A stretch of 64,000 nucleotides of DNA from IMG/VR virus record IMGVR_UViG_3300009163_003337, positions 1-64,000 of that record; one strand, 5' to 3'. Position numbers and translations under genes: made by a program. Positions within the stretch are counted from its first letter, which is position 1; every line of letters begins with the position of its first letter. This stretch comes from a virus. Below, in pieces: positions 1 through 57,316 of this stretch. The notes under the pieces were generated by a model. It had not been told where the DNA came from, ran no database searches, and worked only from the letters and a program-made list of their open reading frames with translations.

Positions 1-117
1 ATAAGCGTCGGAGGATTTAAACTTATTATCAAACTTAAAGATATCACCTACAAGAAAACCACCCCGTTCAAAGCGCTTCATATAATCCTCAACGAGTAAC
101 AAGTACGTTTTTGCCAT
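1..117 (-). CDS. Late protein of unknown function, 5' part only
   Basis: The open frame starts at an ATG at 117 on the minus strand and runs off the left edge, so only 39 residues are visible (start MAKTYLLLVEDYMKRF, then GGFLVGDIFKF). A late-promoter variant CATAAATA lies 5 nt upstream, which fixes the start. The first ten residues end in Leu-Val-Glu, like the putative capsid-targeting leaders of the 46-54 kb genes, so this may be another head-packaged or virion protein. The function cannot be judged from this fragment. Confidence 0.7.
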   Translation of the reverse strand, partial: MAKTYLLLVEDYMKRFERGGFLVGDIFKFDNKFKSSDAY

Positions 118-22533: not shown

Positions 22534-22538
22534 TATTT

Positions 22539-22976
22539 ATGACGAAGTTTGAATCAAGATTTTTGAGAGTTTTAAGTGAGCAAGATATGGACCGTCAAGC
22601 GATGGAACAGTCACTTGATCAAGGCACGGATCCTGGTAAGTTTGATGTTAGTCCTACTAATGGCAATACAGATGCTGCGTCTCAACACCTTGCTGCTGCT
22701 GCTCAAGTTACTGCACAACAGCATGCCGAGTATGTAAAGCAAATAGAAGGTTGGTTTGCTGAAGTAAGAGAAATTTATAAGTTTCTTAATGCCTCGGATG
22801 GCGCGTCTATACTATCAGTAATATCTAATGCACCGGAAAAAACAATATTAAGCGAGGCTCTTGGTGAGAAAGCGTGTAGTCTAATAGAAAGAGCTGCAAA
22901 GGAAATTAGTGCTCTTAGCACCCTGCTAGAGTCCGCTATAAGCTCAAAGACTAAGCCTGAACTTGCAGGAGTCTAA
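22539..22976 (+). CDS. Putative head-targeted protein with capsid-targeting-like leader
   Basis: 145 residues from the ATG at 22539 (start set by the late promoter 5 nt upstream). The leader MTKFESRFLRVLSE ends in Leu-Ser-Glu, the kind of site ([L/I]xE) cut by T4-type prohead protease gp21, and resembles the capsid-targeting sequences of T4 internal proteins. The rest is Ala/Gln-rich and then helical ('ASILSVISNAPEKTILSEAL'). It is an isolated plus-strand late gene among early minus-strand genes, and its 3' end overlaps the primase 3' end by 26 nt. Function unknown. Confidence 0.6.
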   Translation: MTKFESRFLRVLSEQDMDRQAMEQSLDQGTDPGKFDVSPTNGNTDAASQHLAAAAQVTAQQHAEYVKQIEGWFAEVREIYKFLNASDGASILSVISNAPEKTILSEALGEKACSLIERAAKEISALSTLLESAISSKTKPELAGV

Positions 22977-32058: not shown

Positions 32059-32538
32059 ATGAGTTCCTTTAGTAATCTACTTTCAAGGCTATCTTTTCTT
32101 AACGAGCAGTTTAAGCTAGGTAAGCCAGAGACAAAGGTGTTAAATCCAATAATTGCATCACTTAAGCATCCAACTATTTTGGATAAAAAGCCCGCGAATT
32201 CGTATTTAAAGAACTTGGTAAAAATTACTGCACTGTCGAGATTAGATCTAATAACGAATGAGCAATTTAGTATACTTAAAAGGAAAGCTGCATCTGTAAC
32301 GTATATTACTAATAAGTTAAAAGAATTTGGGCTATATGATAAGTTATTTAAAGATGATGCCACAATAGATGAGGTCAATAATTTTGTTATTGATAACGCT
32401 AGAATGCTTGTTGGTTTTGCTGCTAAGCAAATGCCTGGCGGTGGTTATGACTTACCTGATGAGGGTCTAGAGCCTGAAGAAATAGCGAGAGAGGTAGTGC
32501 AAGATTTGAGTCAAGATATAGATGACTATTCAGAGTAA
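32059..32538 (+). CDS. Putative head-targeted protein, part 1 (before in-frame TAA)
   Basis: 159 residues ending at TAA 32536-32538. The leader MSSFSNLLSRLSFLNE ends in Leu-Asn-Glu, a T4 gp21-like cleavage site, as in other capsid-targeting-like leaders of this window. Sequence continues in the same frame after the stop with coding-like residues ('AYQIEIKFAKRTSEIVVTKV'), so this and the next entry are probably one ~360-residue gene interrupted by one stop. The late promoter supports expression with virion genes. Function unknown. Confidence 0.6.
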   Translation: MSSFSNLLSRLSFLNEQFKLGKPETKVLNPIIASLKHPTILDKKPANSYLKNLVKITALSRLDLITNEQFSILKRKAASVTYITNKLKEFGLYDKLFKDDATIDEVNNFVIDNARMLVGFAAKQMPGGGYDLPDEGLEPEEIAREVVQDLSQDIDDYSE

Positions 32539-35882: not shown

Positions 35883-36022
35883 AAATTCACTTTAAAAATC
35901 AATATAAAAAAGAACCTCTCTTGGTGCGCATTATTAAGAGGCGTGGGAGGTGTTGTTTAAAAAACACCCTCGAAAGTGTGCTTAAATCAGAGGCATCGAG
36001 GGTCTGCTAAATTTATTTATTC
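35883..36022. terminator. Structured intergenic region between convergent genes
   Basis: 140 nt without an ORF. An 8-bp perfect inverted repeat (ACCCTCGA, 35966-35973 / TCGAGGGT, 35996-36003) overlaps a 6-bp one (GGTGTT, 35949-35954 / AACACC, 35963-35968); a third weak stem is CCTCT/AGAGG (35935-35941 area). The two main stems share bases and are mutually exclusive. The region separates the 3' ends of the homing endonuclease and the 36023 gene, so it is probably a two-way terminator; an RNA element tied to the homing gene is the alternative. Confidence 0.4.
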
Positions 36023-36687: not shown

Positions 36688-37227
36688 ATGAGAAAGCAAA
36701 GTGATTGGATTTTATTAGAGCAAGCCTATGTGCAGGTACATGAAGGTGTTGCAGGGGATATGATAATTAAAGCTGGGGCTTTTCTTGTTAAAAAATTACA
36801 AGAAGCTGATTCAAAAATGTTTAAAGAATTACAAGAGATAGTAAGTAATAAAGATGTACAAGCTTTAGATAAAATTATGAATCAACCCCAAGTACAGCAA
36901 GCTAAAGAGTACTTTTCACAACCAATACAAGAATCAGTTTTTGGTAATGCTGGTAAAATAATTAAAAAAATATATGGTTATTTTATGAATACTTCAAAGG
37001 GTGGAGGTGTGGCTCTGTATATTTTTGGTGCGTTAAGTTTGCTAATAGCTTTATATTTAAAAAATACGGATGATTTCGCCATACGAGCAAGTGTTGAATT
37101 TACAGATGTGCTTATTAAATTTTTTACAGCAGCGGGAATTGCTGAATTAGGTCTGGGAGGTTATAGTAGATTAGATTCTAATCATTTTGACAACAGACCA
37201 AAAGAAAATGGAAAAGTAAAGTATTAA
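36688..37227 (+). CDS. Putative head-targeted protein with a membrane segment
   Basis: 179 residues. The leader MRKQSDWILLEQAYVQVHEG has Leu-Leu-Glu at 9-11 and closely resembles the leader of the 51377 protein (LLSEAYGQV). A helical, Gln/Lys-rich region follows, then a hydrophobic segment at ~112-127 ('GVALYIFGALSLLIALYL') and an amphipathic second one ('VLIKFFTAAGIAELGLGGY'). A head-packaged protein that inserts in the host membrane on ejection is one reading. Its stop overlaps the polymerase stop in a shared TTAA. Confidence 0.55.
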   Translation: MRKQSDWILLEQAYVQVHEGVAGDMIIKAGAFLVKKLQEADSKMFKELQEIVSNKDVQALDKIMNQPQVQQAKEYFSQPIQESVFGNAGKIIKKIYGYFMNTSKGGGVALYIFGALSLLIALYLKNTDDFAIRASVEFTDVLIKFFTAAGIAELGLGGYSRLDSNHFDNRPKENGKVKY

Positions 37228-43088: not shown

Positions 43089-44134
43089 AATGTGCACCTA
43101 TTAAAGAGATCTAGTGTGTATTCAAGTACACTTTCTGATTTCGTTGTGTTTAGTAACTTGACGAAATCTATTATTGACTGCTGGATATCAACACTGGAAA
43201 GATTACGCTCTGCAGATGCATCAAGCATCTTACTTTGAATGTCGTAGTCAAATTGTAGACTATAGGGATTTAATTGATTTAATTTAAGAGACAATATTTT
43301 CTGATCTTCTTTTGATATATTACAGTCTATCTTTAACCTAATTATATTATTATGAATAAGAAGCCGGATATCCTCAGTTATTGTTTCGCTTAAAGCAAGC
43401 TCTTTAAGCGATATCTTTACATGACGGGGTGATATAGTGTTAGGAAAAAATTCAAGATTGAGCTTATTAATATCAAGTATATAATAACCTTTCTCATTAC
43501 CTAAATCACCTAAATCCATTTCAAATGGATTACCTACATAAAGTATACTACCGACACTATACTTTTTTTCACTTCTTAGATGAAAATGACCTGAAATAAT
43601 ACATGAACTTTTTTGTAAAAGATCTGTTATTTTTATACCTTCCTCACACATCTTGTATGAGTTCATTTTAAAAGTTTCAATTTCAAAATGACCTATGACT
43701 ATATCACTATTTGGTATGTTATTAATATCAGTATTCCAGGGGCATAGGCATATGCTCTTACCGAATGCATTTAATGTAGTAACACTATCATATATAGTGA
43801 CATTTCGCCTGTGTTTAAAAATAGATAAAGAATTAACGTCAGTTCTATATTTGTAATATACATCATGATTACCTGTAATAGCTATTACGTTAAATTCTTG
43901 AAATATATCTAAGATATCGGCTGATACCTGTAAGGTATTTACAGATATTTCACTTCTATTGTGGTGCCAATCACCGCAAAATATTACATCCTTTATTTTT
44001 TTTTGCCTGAACTCACCTGCAATCCATGTCGCCCATTCAATAGCGGTCTTATGCCAACTAGCGCTGTTAGAGTGTATACCTAGATGTAGATCTGAAATGA
44101 TACCTACTTTAGGAGTCTTTATATCAATACTCAT
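43085..44134 (-). CDS. 47: Recombination nuclease gp47 (SbcD/Mre11-like)
   Basis: 349 residues from the ATG at 44134 (MSIDIKTPK); ATGs at 44137 and 44152 are also in frame. Metallophosphoesterase motifs: 'VGIISDLHLGIHS' (Asp-x-His), 'VIFCGDWHHNRS' (GDxxH), 'VIAITGNHDVYYK' (GNHD) and 'CIISGHFHLRSEK' (GHxH). It forms the nuclease with gp46. It overlaps the gp55 stop; coupling is likely. T4 gp47 is 339 aa, so size is normal. Confidence 0.9.
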   Translation of the reverse strand: MSIDIKTPKVGIISDLHLGIHSNSASWHKTAIEWATWIAGEFRQKKIKDVIFCGDWHHNRSEISVNTLQVSADILDIFQEFNVIAITGNHDVYYKYRTDVNSLSIFKHRRNVTIYDSVTTLNAFGKSICLCPWNTDINNIPNSDIVIGHFEIETFKMNSYKMCEEGIKITDLLQKSSCIISGHFHLRSEKKYSVGSILYVGNPFEMDLGDLGNEKGYYILDINKLNLEFFPNTISPRHVKISLKELALSETITEDIRLLIHNNIIRLKIDCNISKEDQKILSLKLNQLNPYSLQFDYDIQSKMLDASAERNLSSVDIQQSIIDFVKLLNTTKSESVLEYTLDLFNRCTL

Positions 44135-44555
44135 CATCACTATTTTCGTCATCTAACGGCTTAACGTAGATAAACCCACTATGCTGTGAGGAGTCTGACA
44201 TAATGTCACAATATACCTTCTCCCGATATTTTTTTTCTGCTTCGTGATGACGATTTTCCTTTTTAATTCTATTAATGAAGGCATTAAAAGCAATTGTTGT
44301 AAAATAGGCAAACGGATTAGATTCTGTTTCAAATTTATATTTTTTACGGGATAGCGCTGAGTACATCTTAATAAGAGCATCTCCTATCATGTCATCCTTA
44401 TAGGTGTAGTTAATAAAATTACTACTAAAGCTTAAGCCGTGAGCAATTTTTTTAACATTTTCCGCTAGATCATCTGTTAGTATATCAGATGTATAGAAGC
44501 GGTGTAGTGATTCCTTAAATTCTTTCGGACTTATATAATAGTCGGCCTTAGACAT
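44124..44555 (-). CDS. 55: Late-transcription sigma factor (T4 gp55-like)
   Basis: 143 residues; T4 gp55 is 185 aa. The conserved core is visible: 'YKDDMIGDALIKMYSALSRK' and 'NPFAYFTTIAFNAFINRIKK' (sigma region 2 equivalent that recognises the TATAAATA late -10 box). The C-terminus is short and acidic ('PLDDENSDDEY'). Its presence fits the many TATAAATA boxes of this window. A TTGAAA-N16-TATTAT promoter lies 6 nt before the ATG with an AAAGG purine run between. Confidence 0.87.
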   Translation of the reverse strand: MSKADYYISPKEFKESLHRFYTSDILTDDLAENVKKIAHGLSFSSNFINYTYKDDMIGDALIKMYSALSRKKYKFETESNPFAYFTTIAFNAFINRIKKENRHHEAEKKYREKVYCDIMSDSSQHSGFIYVKPLDDENSDDEY

Positions 44556-46462: not shown

Positions 46463-46491
46463 ATTATAAATATAATTATCTATGAAATCAA
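46463..46491 (-). promoter_or_regulatory. sigma70-like promoter of uvsY
   Basis: Minus strand: TTGATT (46491-46486), 17 nt, TATAAT (46468-46463), 6 nt, GTG at 46456. The -10 overlaps the plus-strand late box 46465-46472. Confidence 0.5.
46465..46472 (+). promoter_or_regulatory. T4-type late promoter (TATAAATA)
   Basis: Exact TATAAATA, 9 nt before the ATG at 46482. It overlaps the minus-strand -10 box of uvsY, so early and late promoters exclude each other here. Confidence 0.65.
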
Positions 46492-46736
46492 CTGTAACTT
46501 TTAAAGAATATTTTGAGATTTATGTTGAAGAAATGACGGTCGGTGGTGTTATGGGTGGAAGTACAGGAGGATTCAGTCCTAGTAATCCAACTAGCTCTGA
46601 CTTTTATGCACCAGGTGATGCTCGTATAGCCACACCTGATCAATATATATGTACGAGAGCAGGAGCTATAAAACGCAATAAAAAAAGAGCTAAGAAAAGA
46701 GCTAAGAGAAAAACTAAGCATAATATTAAAAAATAA
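46482..46736 (+). CDS. Small basic head-targeted protein
   Basis: 84 residues. The leader MKSTVTFKEYFEIYVEE is very like the capsid-targeting sequence of T4 internal proteins (MKTxxEF...E). A Gly/Ser-rich middle follows ('GGVMGGSTGGFSPSNPTSS') and a very basic tail ('KRNKKRAKKRAKRKTKHNIK'), suited to DNA binding in the head. The likely fate is packaging, leader cleavage and injection with DNA (inference). It is the first gene of a plus-strand late unit; its stop TAA overlaps the next ATG. Confidence 0.65.
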   Translation: MKSTVTFKEYFEIYVEEMTVGGVMGGSTGGFSPSNPTSSDFYAPGDARIATPDQYICTRAGAIKRNKKRAKKRAKRKTKHNIKK

Positions 46737-47164
46737 TGAACTTAGGTCACTGGATTACCTCATTAGATACTACCGACGATGTTATACCGTACGGATTTAT
46801 ATATAAGATTACATGTTTAATTAATTCTAGATCATATATCGGTAAAAAACAGTGTAAAACTATATTAAAACGTAGACCACTTAAAGGCAAACGTAATAAA
46901 CGTCATGAAGAGCGTGAGACCGACTGGAAAATATACACTTCTTCATCGAGAGAACTTAATGAAGATATAGTGACATACGGTATGGAAAAATTTGTCTTTG
47001 AAATATTGCGTTTTTGTAATTCAAAATTTGAAATGTCATACTTTGAAGCTAAACTTCAATTTGAAGAGGAGGTCCTCTTAAGAGATGACTTTTATAATGG
47101 CATTATTAACTTACGAATTGGTAGACCGAAAAACGCAAATGACTATAGAACACAGGATACCTAG
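46736..47164 (+). CDS. GIY-YIG endonuclease-like protein
   Basis: 142 residues. The catalytic module 'GFIYKITCLINSRSYIGKKQ' (Gly-Phe-Ile-Tyr...Tyr-Ile-Gly) is clear; 'RRPLKGKRNKRHEERETDWK' and a Glu in 'MSYFEAKLQFEEEVLLRDD' complete the pattern known from many T4-like cyanophage GIY-YIG proteins. It may be a functional phage nuclease (recombination/host DNA cutting) rather than a homing gene because there are no NUMOD repeats. Its start overlaps the previous stop (TAATG). Confidence 0.78.
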   Translation: MNLGHWITSLDTTDDVIPYGFIYKITCLINSRSYIGKKQCKTILKRRPLKGKRNKRHEERETDWKIYTSSSRELNEDIVTYGMEKFVFEILRFCNSKFEMSYFEAKLQFEEEVLLRDDFYNGIINLRIGRPKNANDYRTQDT

Positions 47165-47663
47165 GTATGAACTTAAATTATTAAATTTTGATTTCATTCT
47201 TAAAGAGACTTTTAGCAAATTTAATAGTGACATAACCCTATATGGTATTAGTAACAATTTCGCAAAGAAGGATACTCAAAAATTTTTCGTAAATGCACTA
47301 ATTATTACTATTTGTGAGCGGATGAAGACAGGTAAAATAGCCTTATATATTAACAGTGACACATTATATTTAAATAATAATGAAAGAGATATAATTCTTA
47401 ATATTTCCCTTAAAACTATTAGAAAATTACCTTTTCAATTTATAATTAGTAATATACCAGTTGATTTTTTCGTTGAAGAGATACATAATAATGTTGTTGA
47501 GTCGGTGGTGATGCTCGAAACGCAACTGAATTACACTCGTAATTATGATACTCTTGAATATTCACTTAGAGATCTAGTTAAATTCCTTAAGACTCACAAG
47601 TTAAGCTATCTTTATGAAGTGTATTTTAAGCAATTAACCAATAAAATCCTGATAGTTAAATAA
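47139..47663 (+). CDS. Unknown protein coupled to GIY-YIG gene
   Basis: 174 residues from the ATG at 47139 (an upstream in-frame ATG at 47085 would bury the first 18 residues deep in the GIY-YIG gene). Mixed alpha/beta sequence: 'YELKLLNFDFILKETFSKFN', 'LIITICERMKTGKIALYIN', 'LPFQFIISNIPVDFFVEEI'. No recognisable motif. It overlaps the GIY-YIG gene by 26 nt and stops 8 nt before the next start, so it is part of the same late unit. Confidence 0.5.
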   Translation: MTIEHRIPRYELKLLNFDFILKETFSKFNSDITLYGISNNFAKKDTQKFFVNALIITICERMKTGKIALYINSDTLYLNNNERDIILNISLKTIRKLPFQFIISNIPVDFFVEEIHNNVVESVVMLETQLNYTRNYDTLEYSLRDLVKFLKTHKLSYLYEVYFKQLTNKILIVK

Positions 47664-47666
47664 ATA
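47659..47666 (+). promoter_or_regulatory. Late promoter variant (AATAAATA)
   Basis: One mismatch from consensus, 5 nt before the ATG at 47672; it overlaps the stop codon of the previous gene. Confidence 0.55.
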
Positions 47667-47671
47667 TAAAC

Positions 47672-48055
47672 ATGAGTAAATTTCTTAATTTAGTGGAGAG
47701 TAATCTACCTCCACAAGATCTTGATAAGAATAGAGAGGTTTTACGAGACTTACAGCAGCTTTTAAGTAAATCAGGCATAACGTCTTCACTAAAAACTTTT
47801 AAGGATGTTGTAGTTATTACCGTAAATAATAAGGTTGTTGAGTTAGAGCTTAAACATATCTCACAATCTACAGAAGAAGAGGCAGAAGATCAGACGGCTA
47901 AAATGATAGCAGCAGTTGCTGGTTTACCAGACCAAGGTATGAAAGGATTCATTCCGGGTACGACGTCAAACAAGCTTGCACAAGCCAAAAAAACAATGGC
48001 TGATGCAGTCGGAATAATGGCTAATAAATTTAGAGATGCAGCAAACGCGAAATAA
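47672..48055 (+). CDS. Small head-targeted protein
   Basis: 127 residues. The leader MSKFLNLVE ends in Leu-Val-Glu. It then has 'NREVLRDLQQLLSKSGITSS' and 'FKDVVVITVNNKVVELELKH', an acidic patch, and a helical, Ala/Lys-rich end ('KLAQAKKTMADAVGIMANKF'). The size and basic helical tail resemble T4 internal proteins. Its own late promoter supports the start. Function unknown. Confidence 0.55.
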   Translation: MSKFLNLVESNLPPQDLDKNREVLRDLQQLLSKSGITSSLKTFKDVVVITVNNKVVELELKHISQSTEEEAEDQTAKMIAAVAGLPDQGMKGFIPGTTSNKLAQAKKTMADAVGIMANKFRDAANAK

Positions 48056-48058
48056 ATA

Positions 48059-48814
48059 ATGAATAATTTAAATAAATTATTTGAAAAGTATTATAGAATA
48101 CTTAACGAACAAGAGCCGCAAGAAGGAGATATACCTACAGCAACAGGTGATCAACAACAAGCAGTTGATACACCTGTTGATCAAGATAATCAACAACCAC
48201 CGGAGCCAGAAATTATAGTCACTCCAGGTGAGAAATATATTATAAATATTTTAATAAGTGCTTTTTGCTTTGACAAATCGAAGCTTACCAAGCCGCAATT
48301 AATAGAGGTTCGTAATTTAACTAGTAAAATTAATGACCTAAAGGGAAGTTCAATCGCTACCTCAATAGATCTAATTAAGCAGATTTTAAAATTACAACCA
48401 AATACCGTTGTTAGGGAATTTAAAACACTTAATTTAATTAAACGTTATATACTAATAATTGATCAATCACTTGATGCTACAGATCTCAATAACTCACAAC
48501 CTACTAATACAGTAGATCAACCTCTTAAAAATTTTAATAATAGACCTGAAGTGGGGGAATTGGAATTATCTAGACTTTGGCCGCAATATAGTGATTTAAT
48601 AATATCAGCAATAGAACACATACCGACAGTTAGCGATTTTTTAATATTAAGGCCAAGTATTAATAAGTTTATTGAAGAAGATCCAATAGAATTAGTTACT
48701 GTAATTAAAGACCTTCTAACATTCCGTAGCAGTGAGGTAACCGATAAACGAGACAAGTTGCCTGACCCGGATATTGATTCTCCTACCTCAGATCTGCCTT
48801 TAGATTCTCTATAA
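48059..48814 (+). CDS. Head-targeted protein, acidic/helical
   Basis: 251 residues. The leader MNNLNKLFEKYYRILNE ends in Leu-Asn-Glu. A disordered Gln/Pro/Asp-rich stretch (residues ~18-55) follows, then a helical domain ('IINILISAFCFDKSKLTKPQ', 'LKTLNLIKRYILIIDQS'-like) and an acidic tail ('DKRDKLPDPDIDSPTSDLPL'). The AATAAATA directly before its ATG (48051-48058) has no room for a start site and may be coincidence. It follows the previous gene by 3 nt. Function unknown. Confidence 0.55.
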   Translation: MNNLNKLFEKYYRILNEQEPQEGDIPTATGDQQQAVDTPVDQDNQQPPEPEIIVTPGEKYIINILISAFCFDKSKLTKPQLIEVRNLTSKINDLKGSSIATSIDLIKQILKLQPNTVVREFKTLNLIKRYILIIDQSLDATDLNNSQPTNTVDQPLKNFNNRPEVGELELSRLWPQYSDLIISAIEHIPTVSDFLILRPSINKFIEEDPIELVTVIKDLLTFRSSEVTDKRDKLPDPDIDSPTSDLPLDSL

Positions 48815-48815
48815 T

Positions 48816-48902
48816 ATGCCTAATCGTAAATTAACAACTATTTATAGCAGCTTTAGACACATCGCAAACAGATATTGAAAACGAAATAGCTAAGTATGAT
48901 TA
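48816..48902 (+). pseudogene. Tiny ORF with probable frame lesion
   Basis: From the ATG at 48816 the frame gives MPNRKLTT and runs out of sense; another frame continues with a coding-like tail 'LFIAALDTSQTDIENEIAKYD' whose stop (TAA 48900-48902) overlaps the next start in ATGATTAA, as at other junctions here. So a ~28-residue gene with a 1-2 nt indel near 48838 is likely. It may also be non-coding. Low confidence. Confidence 0.3.
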
Positions 48903-49699
48903 ATTTTAAAGAATATTACCGTGTTATAGTCGAAGGAGGAAATATATTTACTGTAGATCCTACAGTACGTATTCAATTAGCATATATTAAACCAACAGTT
49001 GATATGCTTTCAAATATTGTTAATATTAAAAATCTTGATAACTGTTTGTTGGGTAGTACTGGAAAAAGAGAGTCCTCAGGTGATTTAGATATAGCAATTG
49101 ACAGTAAAAAATATACTAAAGATGAAATAACAAACTTATTAATTAAGTGGTGTGAAGATCCAGAGCGTAATTTTGTACCTAAATATTATATTGCTAGAGC
49201 CGGGGATAGTAAAAGTTGGCTCCGAGCATCTGGAGATCAGCTACACTTTAGAACACCTATAGTAGGTTTAGATGGTCAGTTTGTACAAACAGACTTCATG
49301 TTTGTACAAGATATTAAATGGGCTAAATTTGTATTAGCTAATGATGAAGCAAGTCCTTATAACGGTAAACACAGAGGTGTAATATTATCAACTCTTGCTA
49401 AGAATATTAACTGTAAGTGGAGTGGTTTAAAGAGTATAACAAATAGAACATCAGGAGCGGTTGTTGAGGGTTCAAATCCAGATAGAGTTGCTCAAATACT
49501 ACTAGGCGATAAGAATGCTAAGAAAGGTAACCTTAAGACAATTCCAAACATCCTATCATTTCTATATAAAAAATATAATGATGTAGAGGTAGTTTTAAAC
49601 ATATTAGTTGCCGCGCGACAGATAATACTTAAAGACGGTTTAGATATAGCTACATTACTACCACAGCAAAAATTAAAAGCAAAGGTAGAAAATGATTAA
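48896..49699 (+). CDS. Head-targeted nucleotidyltransferase (pol-beta type)
   Basis: 267 residues. The leader MINFKEYYRVIVE ends in Ile-Val-Glu. The enzyme part begins with the minimal nucleotidyltransferase signature 'LLGSTGKRESSGDLDIAID' (Gly-Ser, then Asp-x-Asp) at ~53-70 and a later Asp in 'VQTDFMFVQDIKWAKFVLA', as in pol-beta-fold transferases. It could transfer a nucleotide to RNA, protein or a small molecule. With the leader it looks like a co-injected modifying enzyme, a role T4 Alt fills by ADP-ribosylation (inference). The start overlaps the previous ORF's stop. Confidence 0.65.
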   Translation: MINFKEYYRVIVEGGNIFTVDPTVRIQLAYIKPTVDMLSNIVNIKNLDNCLLGSTGKRESSGDLDIAIDSKKYTKDEITNLLIKWCEDPERNFVPKYYIARAGDSKSWLRASGDQLHFRTPIVGLDGQFVQTDFMFVQDIKWAKFVLANDEASPYNGKHRGVILSTLAKNINCKWSGLKSITNRTSGAVVEGSNPDRVAQILLGDKNAKKGNLKTIPNILSFLYKKYNDVEVVLNILVAARQIILKDGLDIATLLPQQKLKAKVEND

Positions 49700-50234
49700 C
49701 TTTAAACAATTTTTCGAACAGCTACAAAATGTAGAGACAATAGCTGTCTTACCAGGAGGTTTTAAACCACCTACAAAAGGACATTTTTTAGCATTAGAAA
49801 ATATTTTACAAGATGCTAATAAGGGAGTTATTTTTATAGGTAAGAGTCCTCGTGACGGTATAGATCAAGAAATGTCATATCAAATATGGTCTATTTACAA
49901 ACCCTATCTTTCAAAGCCTGTTGAAATTGTTAAGAGTGATGTTACACCTGTTAAATCTACCTATGATCTTGCTACTGAACATACTAACGTTAATATAATT
50001 GTTGGAGCAGGCTCAAAAGATAACGATATAATGAGATATAATTATTTTATTAAAAATACGGAGAAATATCCTCATGTTGTTGTGACTCCTATTAACATTC
50101 AAGGAGGTAATATTAGTGGAACTAAAGTTAGAGATATGATACTTTCGAAAGATCCTAATGTAGTTAATTATTTTGTGCCAGACAATATTAAGGAAACAGA
50201 TAGAGAAAGAATTAAGAATATACTTAATATATAA
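49692..50234 (+). CDS. Head-targeted cytidylyltransferase-fold enzyme
   Basis: 180 residues. The leader MINFKQFFEQLQNVE precedes 'TIAVLPGGFKPPTKGHFLAL' (GGFxPxxxGH; the HxGH motif reads Thr-Lys-Gly-His), and 'GGNISGTKVRDMILSKDP' is the family's second motif (ISxTxxR). This is the NMNAT/PPAT/cytidylyltransferase superfamily. Possible roles are NAD-type cofactor synthesis or adenylylation. The first His of the HxGH is replaced by Thr, which often lowers but does not always abolish activity. It overlaps the previous gene by 8 nt (ATGATTAA). Confidence 0.72.
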   Translation: MINFKQFFEQLQNVETIAVLPGGFKPPTKGHFLALENILQDANKGVIFIGKSPRDGIDQEMSYQIWSIYKPYLSKPVEIVKSDVTPVKSTYDLATEHTNVNIIVGAGSKDNDIMRYNYFIKNTEKYPHVVVTPINIQGGNISGTKVRDMILSKDPNVVNYFVPDNIKETDRERIKNILNI

Positions 50235-50237
50235 ATA
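50230..50237 (+). promoter_or_regulatory. T4-type late promoter (TATAAATA)
   Basis: Exact TATAAATA overlapping the previous stop codon; 11 nt to the ATG at 50249, the longest spacing among the exact late boxes close to genes here. Confidence 0.6.
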
Positions 50238-50248
50238 TTATATTAGCA

Positions 50249-51358
50249 ATGCATAATAAACAACTATCAAATATTTATAGTAAAGGAGTCCTTGGTAATT
50301 TCATCAAGAAACCTCTATATCTACGCGTTTTAGGTGAAGCAGACGAAAAAATTAAAAAGTATAGTAAGCGTGAATTAGCGATAATTATTGCAGCTAAAGA
50401 TCCAAATTTAACTGTAGGTTCTTGCAGTAAAGATACACGGGTTCAGCCAAAAGGTCCATATGATGTAACTAAATTTATTCAGACATTAGAAGATGCTAAA
50501 CTATCAATTGTTAAGATAGTTAAGCCGGGTGAGGATGGATCTACTTCTAGTCTACTTCGTACATATATTGTACAAGACGAAAACGAAAATGAATATCCCG
50601 TTGTATTAGGCAAGGGTAAAGGTTTTGGTACAAGGGATGAAAATTTTGTTCTAGATAATTTAAAGGAACAAATAAAATCTCTATTAATACAAGATGATAC
50701 TGATTACATTACTATTGAGATAAATGGTGAGAGTCAAAAAGTTGACGGTATTGAAACTACCCCAAAAACCCCAAAGAGTGATTTTAATTTTACTTACAAA
50801 GGTAAACCAGTATTATTTATCTCACATAAAGCAGGTAAAAAAGCCTCTGACTACCAGCAATACGGAGGAATGACATGTAAAGCAGGTAAGGATATATGTC
50901 AACATGAAGAGATAGAGGATTTTGTTGATCAGATTAAAGAGAGATATGCAGACGGTATGCCTCCTGGTAAGTCTTTATGGAAGAGGATTAGAGATCCTAA
51001 GCTTAAAAAACTTTCTCTTTTTGGTCCGGATTACGGTGAAAAATACGGAGAAGATAATGTTAATGGCTTGTATCAAGGTAATATAAAAATTGTTCCAGCT
51101 GATAATGATACATATAAACTTGAAGCACATCATATTATATACAATGACGATATACCAGATGGAGAATACGAGCCAGTATTATACGCAAGATATAGTGGAT
51201 CAAGAGGCGGTAATCACGGAATTAAAGATTTAAGAACTGCAATTTTACCAATAGCAAAAATATCTAAAAATACACAAGATGTTAAATTAAACAAGGCTAA
51301 TATTAATGCATTAGATAATACCGAGTCTAAAATAGAGGACTTATTGTTAAATAACTAG
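50249..51358 (+). CDS. Head-targeted protein, possible nuclease-like
   Basis: 369 residues. The N-terminus is longer than other leaders; Leu-Gly-Glu occurs at ~28-30 ('LYLRVLGEADEK'). The region 'TPKSDFNFTYKGKPVLFISH' followed by Lys (...Asp...HK) resembles a PD-(D/E)xK nuclease core but lacks a clear acidic residue before Lys, so this is tentative. C-terminal 'YARYSGSRGGNHGIKDLRTA' is basic. It sits between two other leader-bearing genes and has a late promoter. It could be an injected nuclease or a DNA-binding internal protein. Confidence 0.5.
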   Translation: MHNKQLSNIYSKGVLGNFIKKPLYLRVLGEADEKIKKYSKRELAIIIAAKDPNLTVGSCSKDTRVQPKGPYDVTKFIQTLEDAKLSIVKIVKPGEDGSTSSLLRTYIVQDENENEYPVVLGKGKGFGTRDENFVLDNLKEQIKSLLIQDDTDYITIEINGESQKVDGIETTPKTPKSDFNFTYKGKPVLFISHKAGKKASDYQQYGGMTCKAGKDICQHEEIEDFVDQIKERYADGMPPGKSLWKRIRDPKLKKLSLFGPDYGEKYGEDNVNGLYQGNIKIVPADNDTYKLEAHHIIYNDDIPDGEYEPVLYARYSGSRGGNHGIKDLRTAILPIAKISKNTQDVKLNKANINALDNTESKIEDLLLNN

Positions 51359-51363
51359 AATAG

Positions 51364-51371
51364 CATAAATA
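51364..51371 (+). promoter_or_regulatory. Late promoter variant (CATAAATA)
   Basis: One mismatch from consensus, 5 nt before the ATG at 51377. Confidence 0.55.
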
Positions 51372-51376
51372 GTATT

Positions 51377-51868
51377 ATGCTAAAACGTAGAGATCAAAAT
51401 TTGTTATCAGAAGCTTACGGTCAAGTAGGTGGCTGTGATCTAAGTGCTCCGAGCTTAATGGGTAAGCCTGTTATGATAACAATGGATATGCCAGGCACAG
51501 AGGTATATAATAGTCATGATCATAACCATGATCACGAGCACAATAGTGAAGAGCAGGATCCAAGCGAAATAGAAATGGCATTATCTGAGCTACATAAGCT
51601 TGCAGAATATGCGCCAAAGTTAAAGGAGATCGTTGAGGATCTACCTTCTCTCGAAGGTTGGGTATCCTCGAAAATAACAAAAGCATCGGACTATATTTCA
51701 TCTGTTTATCACTGGCTTGAGTACCAGCAACACGAAGGTTGCGGAGAACATAGTCAAGAAATGTTCAATACAGGTAGTGAAGACTCAGGCTGTGAATATG
51801 CGAAGCAAGGGTGTGAGTGTGGAGGATGTAGTGATTGTGGAGGATGTAGTGATTGTACCTATGATTAA
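51377..51868 (+). CDS. Head-targeted His- and Cys-rich metal-binding-like protein
   Basis: 163 residues. The leader MLKRRDQNLLSEAYGQV resembles that of the 36688 protein. Residues ~53-63 are His-rich ('HDHNHDHEHN'). The middle ('LSELHKLAEYAPKLKEIVED', then 'ITKASDYISSVYHWLEY') matches a helical pattern recurrent in T4-like cyanophage proteins (memory; unverified). The end is Cys-rich with a duplicated Gly-Gly-Cys-Ser-Asp-Cys unit. Metal (zinc, copper or iron) binding is likely; biological role unknown. The stop overlaps the next gene's start in ATGATTAA. Confidence 0.6.
   Translation: MLKRRDQNLLSEAYGQVGGCDLSAPSLMGKPVMITMDMPGTEVYNSHDHNHDHEHNSEEQDPSEIEMALSELHKLAEYAPKLKEIVEDLPSLEGWVSSKITKASDYISSVYHWLEYQQHEGCGEHSQEMFNTGSEDSGCEYAKQGCECGGCSDCGGCSDCTYD
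51821..51856 (+). repeat. 18-nt tandem direct repeat, 2 copies
   Basis: GGAGGATGTAGTGATTGT occurs twice in tandem (51821-51838, 51839-51856), encoding two identical GGCSDC units at the end of the His/Cys-rich protein. A recent duplication by slippage is the simplest explanation. Confidence 0.9.
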
Positions 51869-52295
51869 TTTTAAAAATTTTTTCGAAAAGACGGTTATAG
51901 GTCTCATTGAGGTAATGAGTATCGAGGGTATCGGGTCTATTAAAGTTAAAATAGATTCAGGTAACGGAGCCTATAATGTAATACACGGTGATGATCTCAC
52001 TATACAAGGTTCAAAAGTTTCTTTTACTACTATTAATGGAAAACGACTAATAAAGGATGTAGAGGATACTATAAGCATTAATGTAGGAGCTGGTCATACA
52101 GAAGAACGCCCAGTGGTTAAATTTAGAGTTAAATTTGCCGGTACAGAATTTGAAAATATACCTTTTAGTATAGGTAACAGAGAAGCTAATGAATATAAAG
52201 TCCTTGTTGGTAAGGATTTTATTAAGCAGCTTGATGCTTTAATTGATGTAAATTCAAACAATATTGCGAATAATCAAATTGAAGTTAAATATTAA
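51861..52295 (+). CDS. Head-targeted retropepsin-like aspartic protease
   Basis: 144 residues from the ATG at 51861 (MINFKNFFEK); the leader carries a Leu-Ile-Glu site near residue 17. The rest fits the RimB/Pfam Zn_protease retropepsin-like family: 'SIKVKIDSGNGAYNVIHGDD' (Asp-Ser-Gly as catalytic triad), 'EERPVVKFRVKFAGTEFENI' and 'NREANEYKVLVGKDFIKQLD'. The family's usual DTGA is DSGN here, still compatible with catalysis. It may cleave a host or phage protein after injection (inference). The stop overlaps the convergent 52292 gene in a shared TTAA. Confidence 0.68.
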   Translation: MINFKNFFEKTVIGLIEVMSIEGIGSIKVKIDSGNGAYNVIHGDDLTIQGSKVSFTTINGKRLIKDVEDTISINVGAGHTEERPVVKFRVKFAGTEFENIPFSIGNREANEYKVLVGKDFIKQLDALIDVNSNNIANNQIEVKY

Positions 52296-52822
52296 TACCA
52301 ATTAGGTTGCTCTCTTGTTGTCCAGGTAGCAAATTCTTTATCGTTTATAATATAGGAGCGATATTGATCGATAACACTTAATTGATTAAAATTAGGTAAT
52401 TTACGACAATTACAATCTACACCAATAGCTACAGCATATGGTGTAAGCTCGGTTTGTGTTGTAATGATATTATGTATATTGTCCTTACACCACTTAATAA
52501 ACGTTTTAGTAAAGTGCTCATTAGAATTAGGCCAGCGATACATTCGCTCATTAAACATTTCAAGCGTATGATCAGTCAACCATTCAAAATTAGCTTTTGT
52601 TTCTCTTGTCCAAATAGAGCACTGATGCTTAGCATAGCCTTTACCAGCCTTTCTTGGTTTACCGGATTGCGTTCTAGGTGTAGATGGGTGATCTAACAAT
52701 TCTTGCGGAAATGCATGCGCTAACATAATAGCTCCTTCAATTTGCATTTTAGATTTTACATGCTGATCACAAAGATCCCGTGCTGCTAACACGGGATCAT
52801 CGTTAGTTACAAAAATATTCAT
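52292..52822 (-). CDS. Conserved phage protein (NIFVxxxDPxxAA family)
   Basis: 176 residues. 'NIFVTNDDPVLAARDLCDQH', then 'SIWTRETKANFEWL' and 'CRKLPNF' match a widespread family seen in phages and some bacteria. I recall it as uncharacterised; a distant similarity to T4 endonuclease V (Asp-Gln-His near the start, Trp-Tyr at the end) is only suggestive. It would be cytosolic. A GGAAC-N5-TATTAT element lies 5 nt before the ATG. It shares a TTAA stop overlap with the retropepsin-like gene. Confidence 0.6.
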   Translation of the reverse strand: MNIFVTNDDPVLAARDLCDQHVKSKMQIEGAIMLAHAFPQELLDHPSTPRTQSGKPRKAGKGYAKHQCSIWTRETKANFEWLTDHTLEMFNERMYRWPNSNEHFTKTFIKWCKDNIHNIITTQTELTPYAVAIGVDCNCRKLPNFNQLSVIDQYRSYIINDKEFATWTTREQPNWY

Positions 52823-52827
52823 AACTC

Positions 52828-52843
52828 ATAATATGTAAGTTCC
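52828..52843 (-). promoter_or_regulatory. GGAAC-N5-TATTAT promoter-like element
   Basis: Minus strand: GGAAC (52843-52839), 5 nt (TTACA), TATTAT (52833-52828), 5 nt, ATG at 52822. Confidence 0.45.
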
Positions 52844-52844
52844 T

Positions 52845-53513
52845 TTACTTTGTAGAAGCCATATCGATAAACTTATAAAGCTCGGTACGAGTCTTTTCAT
52901 CGGTAAGAAAATCACCTGTAAGTTTAGATGTAATCATAAAACAACCATCATGTCTTACTCCTCTATTACACGCGCATGTATGTTGAGCTTTAAGAACTAC
53001 AGCCACACCTAGATTACCTTCACAAGCTATATTGACAGCATCAGCAATTTGTTTTGTTAACATTTCTTGGATTTGAGGTCTACGAGCATAAAACTCAACA
53101 ATACGATTGAGCTTACTAAGACCGATAACCTTACCATCTAGACTCGGAATATATGCAAGATGAGCAACACCAGTAAAGGCTAAATGATGATGTGAACAAA
53201 GAGACTTTACAGGAATATTACACTGTGCAACAATCCCATCATAACCATCATTAGGAAATGCAGTTACATCAGGTTGACTATCATAACAACCGGTCGCAAT
53301 ATCATTAACGAATGCCTTAGCGACACGCATAGGGGTATTATCTGAATTAGGATCATTCCGCCAATCAAACCCAAGTGCATCCATATATTTTTCATATGCT
53401 TTTGCTGCACGCTTAATAATAGCTTGCTTTTCTCTTTCTGTTCTTGGAGCGTTACCATTAGCATATGGTAATTTAACTAGGTCACCAATCTCAACGTGTT
53501 CTAAATCTTCCAT
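52845..53513 (-). CDS. folE: GTP cyclohydrolase I (FolE)
   Basis: 222 residues, as in typical bacterial FolE. Family motifs: '[20 protein letters not shown]' (zinc Cys and His), '[20 protein letters not shown]', QIQEMLT, '[17 protein letters not shown]' (second zinc Cys). It converts GTP to dihydroneopterin triphosphate, the first step of 7-deazaguanine (and folate) synthesis. With QueD, QueE and QueC it completes preQ0 synthesis. A TTGAAA-N16-TATAAT promoter is 7 nt before the ATG, back to back with the late promoter of the divergent 53563 gene. Confidence 0.93.
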
Positions 53514-53520
53514 ATTAATG

Positions 53521-53548
53521 ATTATAAATCATAATTTATCGATTTCAA
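53521..53548 (-). promoter_or_regulatory. sigma70-like promoter of folE
   Basis: Minus strand: TTGAAA (53548-53543), 16 nt, TATAAT (53526-53521), 7 nt, ATG at 53513. Confidence 0.6.
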
Positions 53549-53549
53549 C

Positions 53550-53557
53550 TATAAATA
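53550..53557 (+). promoter_or_regulatory. T4-type late promoter (TATAAATACTA)
   Basis: Exact TATAAATA and also the downstream CTA of the extended T4 late consensus, 5 nt before the ATG at 53563. It lies 1 nt from the -35 box of folE on the other strand. Confidence 0.75.
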
Positions 53558-53562
53558 CTAAT

Positions 53563-54183
53563 ATGCGTAAGCTTTCACAAAGAGAATTATTAGAAGAAAA
53601 ATGGGGCGACTATTTTAGAGGTTTTGGTAAAGCTGCTGCAAGAAAAGCTCTTGCAGCAACTAAGGGTATAATTAGAACTATTTCACCTACAGGCGCTAAA
53701 ATTCTAAGTTCTGCTGCTGATGCTGTTGGCGCAACAGCTGCTAATATTCTTGGATCAAGTCCAAAAAACGCGTTAGAAACGTTTTTAAAAAGACCAGAAA
53801 ACCAACACTTATTTAAGACATATGAAATAATTAAAGAAACAAATTTACCAAACGGTGATAGATCCATAGAACTCACAGGTGAATTTATTCATCCACAAAC
53901 ATTTGCTATATCAAATATTACAACAAATATTGTATTTCGTCGTGTTGATAGTGGAGGAATTAGTCCAGAGAAATGGAAGTGTATAAGTAAATTTAATAAC
54001 CAAACCGGGCAATTTAGTATAGAATCAACCCCACCAGCTACAGCACCTGCTACGACAGCGACACCTACGACTGCTACGCCACCACCAGCTACGACAGCAG
54101 CTAACGGAAGACAACTAAGCCAGACTCCAAGTGCAATAAGAAGTAGAAATGCTAGAGCAGCAGCAAGAGCAGCAGCACCTTAG
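53563..54183 (+). CDS. Head-targeted protein with Pro/Thr/Ala-rich tail
   Basis: 206 residues from the ATG at 53563. The leader MRKLSQRELLEEKWGDYF has Leu-Leu-Glu at 9-11 (like the 36688 leader). A basic Ala-rich stretch follows ('GFGKAAARKALAATKGIIRT'), then a beta domain ('ITTNIVFRRVDSGGISPEKW'), and a low-complexity tail of PTTATPP repeats ending in 'ARAAARAAAP'. The basic and Ala-rich segments suggest DNA binding in the head. Function unknown. Late promoter matches T4 consensus best of all. Confidence 0.55.
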   Translation: MRKLSQRELLEEKWGDYFRGFGKAAARKALAATKGIIRTISPTGAKILSSAADAVGATAANILGSSPKNALETFLKRPENQHLFKTYEIIKETNLPNGDRSIELTGEFIHPQTFAISNITTNIVFRRVDSGGISPEKWKCISKFNNQTGQFSIESTPPATAPATTATPTTATPPPATTAANGRQLSQTPSAIRSRNARAAARAAAP

Positions 54184-54235: not shown

Positions 54236-54895
54236 ATGAAGAAAGTATTTCAATCAGCAAAAGTAATCGAGTTGGGTTCATGTGCATTTAGACAATGGCG
54301 CGCCACTAGTCATTGTAGATTTCTACACGGATATCAGCTTAAAGCAAAATTGTGGTTTGGTTGTTCTGAGTTAGACAATAAAGGTTGGGTAGTTGACTTC
54401 GGTAGTCTTAAAGCTCTTAAAGATGAACTTAAGAGTATCTATGATCATACTACTACCGTTGCTCTTGATGATCCAGAACTTGAAACTTTTAAAAAGCTAC
54501 ACGAAAGCGGTATAATTCAGCTATATATTGTTAAGAAGGGAGTCGGCGTTGAACGCACGGCAGAATATGTTTTTGAAATTGCTCAAAAACACATTGAATC
54601 TATCACAAATGGTCGCTGCTGGGTAGATAAGGTAGAAGTCTTTGAACATGATGAAAACTCTGCTATTTTTAGTAGTTTTGATCATATACCTGCTCATAAA
54701 TCAGGATTTACAGGAGTAGTCAATACCGGTGTAATAGATGAAGCAGTAACACAAACAATTAACACATCTAATATAGCCCCGGTTAGCTTTACATGTGCTC
54801 CACCAGTTGGATTTACTGGCGCAGCACATGTAGGCTCAGGTAGCGTATCAAGCGGAATGGGTAATCCGTTCGCTGGTACTAGTTGGGGTGCTTAA
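54236..54895 (+). CDS. queD: 6-carboxy-tetrahydropterin synthase (QueD-like)
   Basis: 219 residues. Zinc His of the PTPS/QueD family: 'ATSHCRFLHGYQLKAKLWFG' (His...His-Gly-Tyr); 'KGWVVDFGSLKALKDELKS' (V-x-DFxxLK) and 'SIYDHTTTVALDDPE' (catalytic Asp-His) follow. It makes 6-carboxy-tetrahydropterin from the FolE product. The C-terminal ~70 residues are a Ser/Gly/Thr-rich extension ('SGFTGVVNTGVIDEA', 'GMGNPFAGTSWGA') not needed for the reaction; similar tails occur in other phage QueD proteins. The stop overlaps the convergent phoH stop in a TTAA. Confidence 0.87.
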   Translation: MKKVFQSAKVIELGSCAFRQWRATSHCRFLHGYQLKAKLWFGCSELDNKGWVVDFGSLKALKDELKSIYDHTTTVALDDPELETFKKLHESGIIQLYIVKKGVGVERTAEYVFEIAQKHIESITNGRCWVDKVEVFEHDENSAIFSSFDHIPAHKSGFTGVVNTGVIDEAVTQTINTSNIAPVSFTCAPPVGFTGAAHVGSGSVSSGMGNPFAGTSWGA

Positions 54896-56554: not shown

Positions 56555-57316
56555 ATGAGTATCGATTGTGATAAAGAAACGATGTTTTTGTCGAATGATT
56601 TCGTGTTTTTTACTATAGAAGGAGAGGGAGCGTTTGTTGGAAAGCCTTCGGTCTTTATGAGATTAGCAAGCTGCAACTTAACGTGTTCAGCATTTATTTC
56701 TGAAGACTCTCCACATGGCTGTGATTCATATGTTTCATGGTCGGTAAAGAATAAGATGACGTTTAATGAAATCTTTAAGCTATTTGAAGATGGAGGACAT
56801 ATAGCTCATTTAAAAGCTGGTGCTATCTTAAAATTAACTGGTGGTGAACCGCTTGTTTCAGGTAAGCAGCTCATTAAGTTTATCGAGGCGCTGGTTGCAA
56901 AGTATGATTTCTTACCGCAGATAGACTTTGAGACTAACGCTACTATTATGCCGGATGAACGCTGGGTCACAGAATTTAAAGCTACCTTTACAACATCACC
57001 TAAATTAACAACAAACGGTGATCCCGAAGAGAAAACATACAAGCCCGCAGTATTAAAGTGGCATCGTGAACACGGCTCTGGCTTTAAGTTTGTTATAACT
57101 CGATCTGAAGATATAGATGAAATTTGGCGTAAATATGTTGATGATTATAACGGTATTAATGTACCGCTAAAACGTATATGGTTTATGCCTTGCTGTGGAT
57201 CTAGAAAAGAACACGTAGAAAATGCACCTGCAGTAGTTGAGTATGCTAAGTCTATGCATGTTAACTTTAGTCCAAGGCTACATCTATTAATCTGGGATAA
57301 AGCATTATCGGTATAA
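56555..57316 (+). CDS. queE: 7-carboxy-7-deazaguanine synthase (QueE-like radical SAM)
   Basis: 253 residues. 'DFVFFTIEGEGAFVGKPSVF' and 'MRLASCNLTC' then 11 residues and 'GCDSYVSW' give the three Cys of the [4Fe-4S] cluster as C-x3-C-x11-C, more spread than the usual C-x3-C-x2-C; 'LKLTGGEPLVSGKQLIKFIE' is the SAM-binding GGEP motif and 'QIDFETNATIM' is the next conserved strand. It makes CDG, the substrate of QueC. The insertion between Cys 2 and 3 has counterparts in other phage QueE proteins (recollection, unverified). It directly follows the homing endonuclease (2 nt). Confidence 0.85.
   Translation: MSIDCDKETMFLSNDFVFFTIEGEGAFVGKPSVFMRLASCNLTCSAFISEDSPHGCDSYVSWSVKNKMTFNEIFKLFEDGGHIAHLKAGAILKLTGGEPLVSGKQLIKFIEALVAKYDFLPQIDFETNATIMPDERWVTEFKATFTTSPKLTTNGDPEEKTYKPAVLKWHREHGSGFKFVITRSEDIDEIWRKYVDDYNGINVPLKRIWFMPCCGSRKEHVENAPAVVEYAKSMHVNFSPRLHLLIWDKALSV

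Follow-up and report, generated by a model that had tools for sequence, protein, structure and literature searches.

Leader-bearing genes of the window

The window, the whole stretch of 64,000 nucleotides that was analysed (positions 1 to 64,000 of IMG/VR record IMGVR_UViG_3300009163_003337), comes from a T4-like phage whose record is solely metagenomic. It holds 13 genes whose products begin with a leader of 9-30 residues, comprising 12 ATG-started open reading frames and a minus-strand gene cut at 117-1. The first-pass annotation had proposed capsid-targeting-like leaders at these starts; all were borne out, including the two listed there as probable, namely the minus-strand gene and 50249, which has a longer leader. 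The genes, named by their start positions, and the features associated with them are as follows.

117 down to 1, minus strand: end-cut gene, begins MAKTYLLLVEDYMKRFERGG; leader MAKTYLLLVE (88..117)
129, minus strand: ATAAATA of the end-cut gene, 5 nt before its ATG
22539..22976, plus strand: leader MTKFESRFLRVLSE (22539-22580); body of 131 residues without assigned function
32059..32538, plus strand: lone late gene; leader MSSFSNLLSRLSFLNE (32059-32106)
36688..37227, plus strand: leader MRKQSDWILLE (36688-36720), like that of 51377; ATAAATA 5 nt upstream
44124..44555, minus strand: gp55-type late sigma factor (PHROG 234, E 3e-25)
46465..46472, plus strand: late promoter TATAAATA, an example, preceding 46482
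46482..46736, plus strand: leader MKSTVTFKEYFEIYVE (46482-46529), then a segment like the N-arm of the major capsid protein (MCP), then a basic tail
46736-47164, plus strand: SegE-type GIY-YIG endonuclease (PF19835, E 3e-27), leaderless, inside the island
47085-47663, plus strand: second leaderless open reading frame inside the island
47672..48055, plus strand: leader MSKFLNLVE (47672-47698)
48059..48814, plus strand: leader MNNLNKLFEKYYRILNE (48059-48109); acidic body
48896..49699, plus strand: leader MINFKEYYRVIVE (48896-48934); Pol-beta-type nucleotidyltransferase-like body (GSTGKRESSGDLDIAI)
49692..50234, plus strand: leader MINFKQFFE (49692-49718); cytidylyltransferase/NMNAT-like body (PGGFKPPTKGH)
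50249..51358, plus strand: leader MHNKQLSNIY...RVLGE (50249-50338); type II restriction-like nuclease body (SDF...ISHK)
51377..51868, plus strand: leader MLKRRDQNLLSE (51377-51412); His-rich and Cys-rich body
51861..52295, plus strand: leader MINFKNFFEKTVIGLIE (51861-51911); PF05618 protease body
53563..54183, plus strand: leader MRKLSQRELLEE (53563-53598); hypervariable body
22527, 32043, 36676, 47660, 48052, 50231, 51365 and 53551, plus strand: ATAAATA of other leader genes

The earlier description of the bodies as effector enzymes holds for part of the set, which includes a PF05618 protease, a type II restriction-like nuclease, a cytidylyltransferase/NMNAT fold and a probable nucleotidyltransferase, but 46482, 53563, 36688 and 48059 could instead bind DNA or belong to the core or a membrane. 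The body of 51861 matches PF05618 with E 3e-8 (34.1 bits against a cut-off of 27), and F4, F7, E9, GLIE17 and the DSGNGA motif are invariant in eight orthologs. That of 49692 matches PHROG 395 (E 5e-6), and some of its orthologs have no E at the end of the leader (MSKFLKLIDEN). The nuclease body of 50249, which was not named in the first-pass annotation, matches PADLOC REase_II (E 2e-10) and phrog_13937 (E 6e-55) and has conserved residues D178, S192 and K194; the mean pLDDT of its structure model is 53. The body of 48896 contains a GS...DxD motif and is a probable Pol-beta-type nucleotidyltransferase; a Pfam search of it gave no convincing match, and the fold matches to Pol beta/lambda are weak (E 0.006 or worse, TM 0.2-0.27). 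Residues 1-18 are disordered in its structure model (pLDDT 72), and its relatives include a 567-aa form. The His-rich and Cys-rich body of 51377 is probably metal-binding, and the hydrophobic segment in the body of 36688 is probably a membrane segment.

Pfam and PHROG gave nothing usable for 22539, 32059, 36688, 46482, 48059 and 53563, nor did PADLOC for 32059, 36688 and 53563. A Phage_capsid match to 51377 and a partial LAGLIDADG_3 match to 47672 (24 residues) were both below cut-off and were ignored. The gene at 22539 lies alone as a late gene amid minus-strand early genes; its orthologs, beginning MTKFESRFFKALNEQD and MTKFENRFFKVLKEQD, are 35-48% identical. The orthologs of 48059 retain FKKYYRILNEQE though the proteins are 31-35% identical, and an intact homolog of the end-cut gene in a relative starts MAGKKFVKLHESYMRRYERGG (MAGKKFVKLHES). 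By the leader criterion, the SegE-type endonuclease and the open reading frame at 47085-47663 are not cargo.

Leader classes, late promoters and exchanged bodies

The single motif M-x2-3-F-x-x-[FY] first proposed for the leaders fits about half of them; the rest fall into other classes, and one common motif is not sufficient. The classes are MINFK[E/Q/N][YF][YF] (48896, 49692 and 51861), MSKFLNLVE (47672), M.KLSQ.ELLEE (53563), a DQNLLSEAYGQV-like class (51377 and 36688), MKSTVTFKEYFEIYVE (46482) and the 30-residue MHNKQLSNIY...RVLGE (50249), and the remaining leaders form further classes. Aromatic or hydrophobic residues at positions 4 and 7 are clear in 48896, 49692, 51861, 47672, 32059 and most relatives; the F4/F7 pattern is absent from 36688, 51377 and 53563, which have other patterns. 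Position 4 is aromatic in 6 of 13 leader genes versus 13 of 87 others (p=0.016), and a hydrophobic residue at position 4 alone is not in significant excess in the leader genes (p=0.16). As to the proposed [LIV]-x-E end, 12 of the 13 have [LIVMF]xE at residues 8-20, versus 23 of 87 others, with 49692 departing in having F at P3 (FFE); the p value of 8e-6 is partly circular because the genes had been picked in the first pass by that feature. LxE alone was rejected as evidence, since 23 of 87 ordinary genes have [LIVMF]xE and the QueD, SegE and PhoH families carry LxE by chance.

Two further tests are non-circular. First, a T4-type late promoter (ATAAATA) lies 0-11 nt before the ATG in 10 of 13 leader genes, compared with 2 of the 58 remaining non-structural genes (p=3.7e-8). 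Judged by their promoters, the leader genes are late genes, and the gp55-type factor is expected to read the TATAAATA promoters. Second, among 80 relatives, N-terminal decamers are similar in 40 of 496 pairs of families whose bodies show no detectable similarity, against an expectation of 0.55 derived from internal windows, for which 200 draws gave 4 at most; among minus-strand families, taken as a control, such sharing occurs in 0 of 91 pairs.

The leaders recur in relatives as natural swaps visible in sequence, with the same leader before replaced bodies. The main cargo-swap slot is 53563, where M.KLSQKELLxEGF is kept and the bodies that follow measure 141-598 aa; 58 of the 80 relatives have such a leader in the slot, and the bodies belong to at least eight unlinked families. 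The MSKFLNLVE leader of 47672 is common to five families whose bodies have no detectable similarity, and the 51377 leader is retained in 59 distinct island proteins. The first 16 residues of 32059 are 81% identical to a leader in relative G004, and the bodies behind leaders of this type in G004 (374 aa) and G003 (495 aa) are unrelated to that of 32059. Other leaders of relatives, MKTFKQYLAEQ and MKTFREYFEEN, match T4 MKTYQEFIAEA in spacing.

The check suggested earlier, for a gp21-like protease outside the window, was positive: positions 81605-82270 of the contig code for a prohead protease of the gp21 type (S77; PF03420, E 1e-30; PHROG 207, E 2e-54), and portal and gp55 are encoded on this contig too. 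In the protein of 46482, an MCP N-arm-like segment occupies approximately residues 17-50 and the tail is strongly basic. Residues 15-49 match the MCP of a relative (tblastn, E 3e-6), and the end of the leader aligns with the predicted MCP maturation site, [IVMLF].E|[AS]N, which was taken from relatives as the contig stops before gp22/gp23.

Virion-detected homologs and known head-cargo systems

Virion detection rests on homologs in other phages, namely S-CREM2, S-SCSM1, PA5oct and Atu_ph07. Homologs of 49692 (NMNAT/cytidylyltransferase) were detected by published mass spectrometry in the virions of two cyanophages and have T4-spaced leaders, MKNFSSFLTE and MKSFLQFLKE. The family profile of 49692 matches the S-SCSM1 NMNAT (E 7e-11), which is placed in virions in PMC9602691, and 49692 aligns from the first residues with the family containing virion-detected S-CREM2 gp154 (hhalign, 97%). 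For S-CREM2 (OR473000), with Table 3 of PMC10665884 as the virion list, a motif spaced like MKTYQEFIAE of T4 IPII/IPIII occurs in 5 of 52 virion proteins versus 1 of 167 others (p=0.003); the five are a SAM hydrolase, an APH-like kinase, the cytidylyltransferase and two proteins of no named function. The only S-CREM2 homologs found for the window cargo belong to the cytidylyltransferase and DUF6267 families, and the leaderless DUF6267-like gp87 is not among the virion-detected proteins of that table. In S-SCSM1, the annotated virion proteins gp89 and gp91 begin MDSKTFNSLSEAY and MKSFLQFLKEAAE, the former resembling the leader of 51377. The PA5oct homolog of 48896 is annotated as a virion protein by ESI-MS/MS, and that of Atu_ph07 (CDS 65 by our own count) lies within the virion cluster CDS 31-76; a leader of the present kind is not obvious in either.

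In T4, residues 4 and 7 of the leader serve targeting, residues 8 and 10 govern processing, and gp21 cuts after L/I-x-E (PMC9026906). IPI, IPII, IPIII and Alt resemble the present proteins in their short N-terminal leader with an [L/I]xE end and, as regards part of the leaders here, in having a hydrophobic or aromatic residue close to positions 4 and 7; they likewise combine late genes, a gp21-type protease and unrelated bodies. They are, however, four proteins, whereas approximately 13 are present here. The present leaders fall into several classes and reach 30 residues, and among the bodies behind them are enzymes of protease, nuclease, NMNAT-like and nucleotidyltransferase-like type. The gene slots are conserved, the bodies in them are hypervariable, and a capsid-arm mimic is present. 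The virion NMNAT/cytidylyltransferases of S-CREM2 and S-SCSM1 share with 49692 homology, an upstream ATAAATA and the T4-spaced leader. In the available portions of their publications, the SAM hydrolase, kinases and NMNAT are treated as metabolic proteins that virions carry or are contaminated with, and no targeting leader is mentioned; the host group also differs and the insertions are larger. In P1, DarA, DarB and other Dar proteins are loaded into the head by means of a capsid signal at the N-terminus, for which the initial 30 residues are enough in DarB (PMC9024508), but they are far larger and depend on another protease and signal; they are likened here by description, not by sequence. The YRGM tandem array of Agrobacterium phage Atu_ph07 has a short M[KR]WxQLxE start ending in LxE and lies in a region dense in virion proteins, but its leader class is different and its tandem bodies seem, by eye, to be one ADP-ribosyltransferase-like family. 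Searches of the open-licence literature turned up no such cargo set beyond those of T4-type phages, P1 and the SPN3US group.

Probable capsid targeting and its alternatives

It is highly probable that the leaders are capsid-targeting sequences working like that of T4, and that the genes form a modular cargo set, which would be freed in the head and ejected with the DNA. This interpretation, already put forward in the first-pass annotation, is strengthened by the phage's own gp21-type protease, the late promoters, the movement of leaders between unrelated bodies, the alignment of the 46482 leader end with the MCP site and the virion-detected homologs with T4-spaced leaders in S-CREM2 and S-SCSM1. 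Head loading is well supported and cleavage of the leaders is likely; by analogy, the cargo would be injected into the host, where we infer that the bodies act as effectors. The system is best regarded as the T4 capsid-targeting system in a large, extended and modular form. A feasible sequence of events may be that gp55-directed late transcription yields the cargo along with the scaffold and capsid proteins, each protein is docked in the prohead core by its own leader, and the gp21-type protease cleaves after the E of [LIVMF]xE, releasing the body inside the head; DNA would be packaged around the freed bodies, which would exit with it at the next infection. The PF05618 protease and the restriction-like nuclease would likely act on host targets, the NMNAT/cytidylyltransferase would likely support or repair NAD or nucleotide pools, and 46482 would likely bind DNA or the shell. 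Fixed leaders and promoters in gene slots with replaced bodies would suit an arsenal under host-defence pressure.

An unlikely but serious alternative is that the leaders do target the prohead core, with the proteins serving as core, scaffold or DNA-condensing parts for assembly, which would make injection unnecessary. T4 IPIII and gp67/gp68, which have roles in assembly (PMC9026906), provide a precedent, 46482 joins a capsid-arm-like segment to a basic tail, and the bodies of 22539, 48059 and 53563 have no recognisable enzyme domain; however, at least three of the bodies resemble enzymes (PF05618 protease, REase_II and cytidylyltransferase), and the wholesale replacement of bodies behind one leader is unlike essential assembly components. 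It is far less probable that the proteins are ordinary late cytoplasmic enzymes, alike at their N-termini through a translation-start constraint or common descent and found in virions as contaminants. Shine-Dalgarno signals are lacking genome-wide (5 of 95 genes versus 5.6% at random) and the late promoters lie right next to the start codon; the first codons could accordingly be under constraint. The authors of PMC10665884 and PMC9602691 also raise contamination of the CsCl preparations as a possible source of the virion enzymes. Yet the structural genes 9329, 14980 and 79986, with the same promoter and spacing, start without such a leader, the minus-strand families lack such N-terminal sharing, and in the S-CREM2 table the motif is enriched among virion-detected proteins and leaderless gp87 is absent. 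That the leaders address the tail or baseplate is scarcely credible: all the proteins are late and some virion proteins of unknown position carry the leader, but it ends in a prohead-protease motif with the spacing of T4 head-cargo leaders, and in 46482 the capsid maturation site is where it joins the capsid-arm segment.

Beyond capsid targeting in this phage, it is conceivable, although tentative, that across a wider T4-like superfamily most virion proteins other than structural ones are loaded by means of a general leader code. Fixed late gene slots would act as cassettes that retain the leader and promoter and exchange the effector body, and head cargo would be predictable from sequence alone. 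This superfamily would comprise the uncultivated clade, cyanophages and possibly jumbo phages, and the predicted protein-delivered cargo would include cyanophage Cas9 and the restriction-like nuclease.

T4 head cargo has been described chiefly from enterobacterial phages. Here, its logic would extend to a large arsenal of exchangeable parts, in a clade common in metagenomes. The leaders would serve as a rule for predicting from sequence the phage proteins that are first into the cell, ahead of the reading of any phage gene, and would point to where early counter-defence factors may be found. They also offer a candidate explanation for the puzzling enzymes of cyanophage virions, namely NMNAT, SAM hydrolase, kinases and Cas9.

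Leader genes and the bodies behind them

All twelve leader open reading frames, starting at window positions 22539, 32059, 36688, 46482, 47672, 48059, 48896, 49692, 50249, 51377, 51861 and 53563, are real, and the thirteenth item (1-117) is also a gene, although it lies on the minus strand, unlike the twelve others. The first-pass annotation had read one shared motif in the leaders, the short N-terminal tags taken as capsid-targeting sequences (CTSs). The common hydrophobic-any-Glu end stands, but no single motif covers the leaders, which belong to several classes. This end occurs in 12 of the 13 leader genes vs. 23 of 87 other genes, a comparison that is partly circular because the genes had been picked by that feature; independent tests were therefore sought.

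Bodies of the leader proteins, by gene start in the window
36688 (+), membrane-like segment
48896 (+; 48896-49699), probably a Pol-beta-type nucleotidyltransferase
49692 (+), cytidylyltransferase/NMNAT fold
50249 (+), type II restriction-like nuclease (PADLOC REase_II, E 2e-10; conserved D...SxK)
51377 (+), rich in His and Cys
51861 (+), PF05618 protease (match above the cut-off)

The 48896 product is short here (267 aa, compared with ~567 aa in relatives), and 50249 lies downstream of it, whereas in relatives it lies upstream; length and gene order together represent a local rearrangement. FolE-, QueD-, QueE- and QueC-like genes (52845-53513, 54236-54895, 56555-57316 and 33135-33953) are located in and around the cargo island, QueD being assigned by PF01242 (E 4e-18) and the others by eye. 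The phage DNA may contain 7-deazaguanines, which, if present, could shield it from the carried nuclease. An abiF RNA (35914-35950, minus strand; Rfam RF03085, 40 bits, E 8e-4) adjoins an open reading frame (35025-35882, plus strand) with no match in Pfam or PADLOC, and the two possibly constitute a phage-borne AbiF-type element.

Shared leaders and exchanged bodies in relatives

A single profile scan with 51861 yielded 80 island loci from relatives, whose proteins were clustered on the body alone (first 25 residues cut off) before N-termini were compared across body groups. The first decamers are alike in 40 of 496 plus-strand family pairs vs. a mean of 0.55 and a maximum of 4 for internal windows, although BLAST may have overlooked a distant homology in some of the 40, several of which share a slot (a fixed gene position); among minus-strand families, 0 of 91 pairs are alike. 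Leaders of the MxxFKxxF class, however, stand in front of various bodies at different slots, among them a PF05618 protease, cytidylyltransferases and DUF6267 proteins. Between 32059 and its counterpart in relative G004, 13 of 16 leader residues are identical and the bodies have no similarity, which, with the decamer excess, supports the earlier claim that unrelated bodies follow shared leaders. In the 53563 slot, the leader M.KLSQKELLxEGF is kept in 58 of the 80 loci, in front of bodies of 141 to 598 aa from at least 8 unlinked families. Bodies have been replaced behind a fixed leader at both of these slots. DUF6267 begins at residue 4, without a leader, in cyanophage S-PRM1, and at residue 21, behind MKKFKLYFEDYLELLEE, in the clade of the window.

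A SegE GIY-YIG homing-type endonuclease (46736-47164) lies within the island, and in relatives L198-L206 another late gene, with Cys pairs and grouped with the homing-type endonucleases, precedes the 53563 slot. Such endonucleases may drive cassette exchange.

Late promoters, head assembly and the predicted capsid maturation site

The T4 late promoter sequence is TATAAATA. ATAAATA is found 0-11 nt upstream of the ATG in 10 of 13 leader genes and in 2 of 58 other non-structural genes (p=3.7e-8); elsewhere it precedes chiefly genes for tail, portal and head proteins. The three leader genes that do not carry it (48896, 49692 and 51861) each lie close downstream of another leader gene, and 22539, 32059 and 36688 are isolated plus-strand late genes amid minus-strand genes. 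At 22505-22539, a divergent late pair (22505 minus, 22539 plus) has overlapping ATAAATA boxes, and a similar back-to-back pair occurs in relatives G003 and G004. The box often ends 5-6 nt from the ATG in late genes of the window, and a genome-wide search for a Shine-Dalgarno signal gave 5 of 95 genes, equal to random. Possibly the late transcripts are leaderless, or Shine-Dalgarno sequences are not used by the host.

The whole contig, an IMG/VR virus of 82,394 bp with the window as its first 64 kb, encodes a T4-type portal (PHROG 213, E 1e-98), a gp55 late sigma factor and UvsY. The gp21-like protease expected outside the window is indeed present at contig 81605-82270 (PHROG 207, E 2e-54; PF03420, E 1e-30), with its own TATAAATA 5 nt upstream of the ATG. 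The contig stops just past this gene, so the scaffold and major capsid protein (MCP) are absent and their sequences were taken from relatives. At the N-terminus of the relatives' MCPs, a conserved stretch ends in WC[IVML]xE|[AS]N, the maturation site expected by analogy with T4. The leader of 46482 runs into a stretch with homology to the capsid arm immediately past this site (tblastn with a relative's MCP, E 3e-6). Capsid CIQE-ANNSGVFGGGQQAGFTPSSPNSKDSYAAGDAR aligns with YVEE-MTVGGVMGGSTGGFSPSNPTSSDFYAPGDAR of 46482, and thus the leader end coincides with the predicted maturation site of the MCP itself. The remainder is a basic tail. From its sequence, 46482 looks like a capsid-arm mimic with a DNA-binding tail.

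Virion homologs and relation to the T4 system

T4 IPII and IPIII begin MKTYQEFIAEA, in which residues 4 and 7 serve targeting and residues 8 and 10 processing (PMC9026906). A T4-spacing pattern, [FYL]xx[FY][LIMVF]xE from position 4, was run on the 219 CDS of cyanophage S-CREM2, for which Table 3 of PMC10665884 lists 52 virion proteins. Judged by that table, 5 of the 52 virion proteins carry it vs. 1 of 167 others (p=0.003, an optimistic value because the pattern was fixed after part of these N-termini had been seen). The five carriers comprise two unknown proteins, one of them small and the other gp136, together with a SAM hydrolase, an APH-like kinase and a cytidylyltransferase. This last is a homolog of the 49692 family (hhalign 97%, with the alignment beginning at the first residues). 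A Cas9 in the same table (OR473000 7704-10313) has the motif within its first 25 residues (LRFASFMAEA); a phage may package Cas9 protein. In a second cyanophage, S-SCSM1, an NMNAT annotated as a virion protein has the N-terminus MKSFLQFLKEAAE; it is matched by the profile of the 49692 family (E 7e-11) and by that family's sister family (E 3e-54). The adjoining gp89 bears a virion annotation too, and its start, MDSKTFNSLSEAY, resembles that of 51377. In PA5oct, the homolog of 48896 is annotated as a structural protein found by ESI-MS/MS, and that of Atu_ph07 (CDS 65 by our count) falls within cluster 31-76, 29 products of which were found in virions. Also in Atu_ph07 (MF403008 39484-49507), ten tandem ADP-ribosyltransferase-like proteins in a virion-protein-rich region start M[KR]W.QL.E, and a YRGM/YRGI motif is present in most of them; they possibly represent an independent leader-tagged effector array.

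It is very likely that the leader loads these proteins into the head, where it would dock them in the prohead core, and likely that the gp21-type protease then cuts it; the bodies would plausibly be ejected and act in the host. Read in this way, the set would function as the T4 CTS system does. It has most of the defining features of that system that could be assessed, whereas presence in heads, cleavage and ejection are predicted for this phage. Unlike that system, it comprises ~13 proteins, with diverse leaders, a distinct enzyme content and cargo that turns over by slot.
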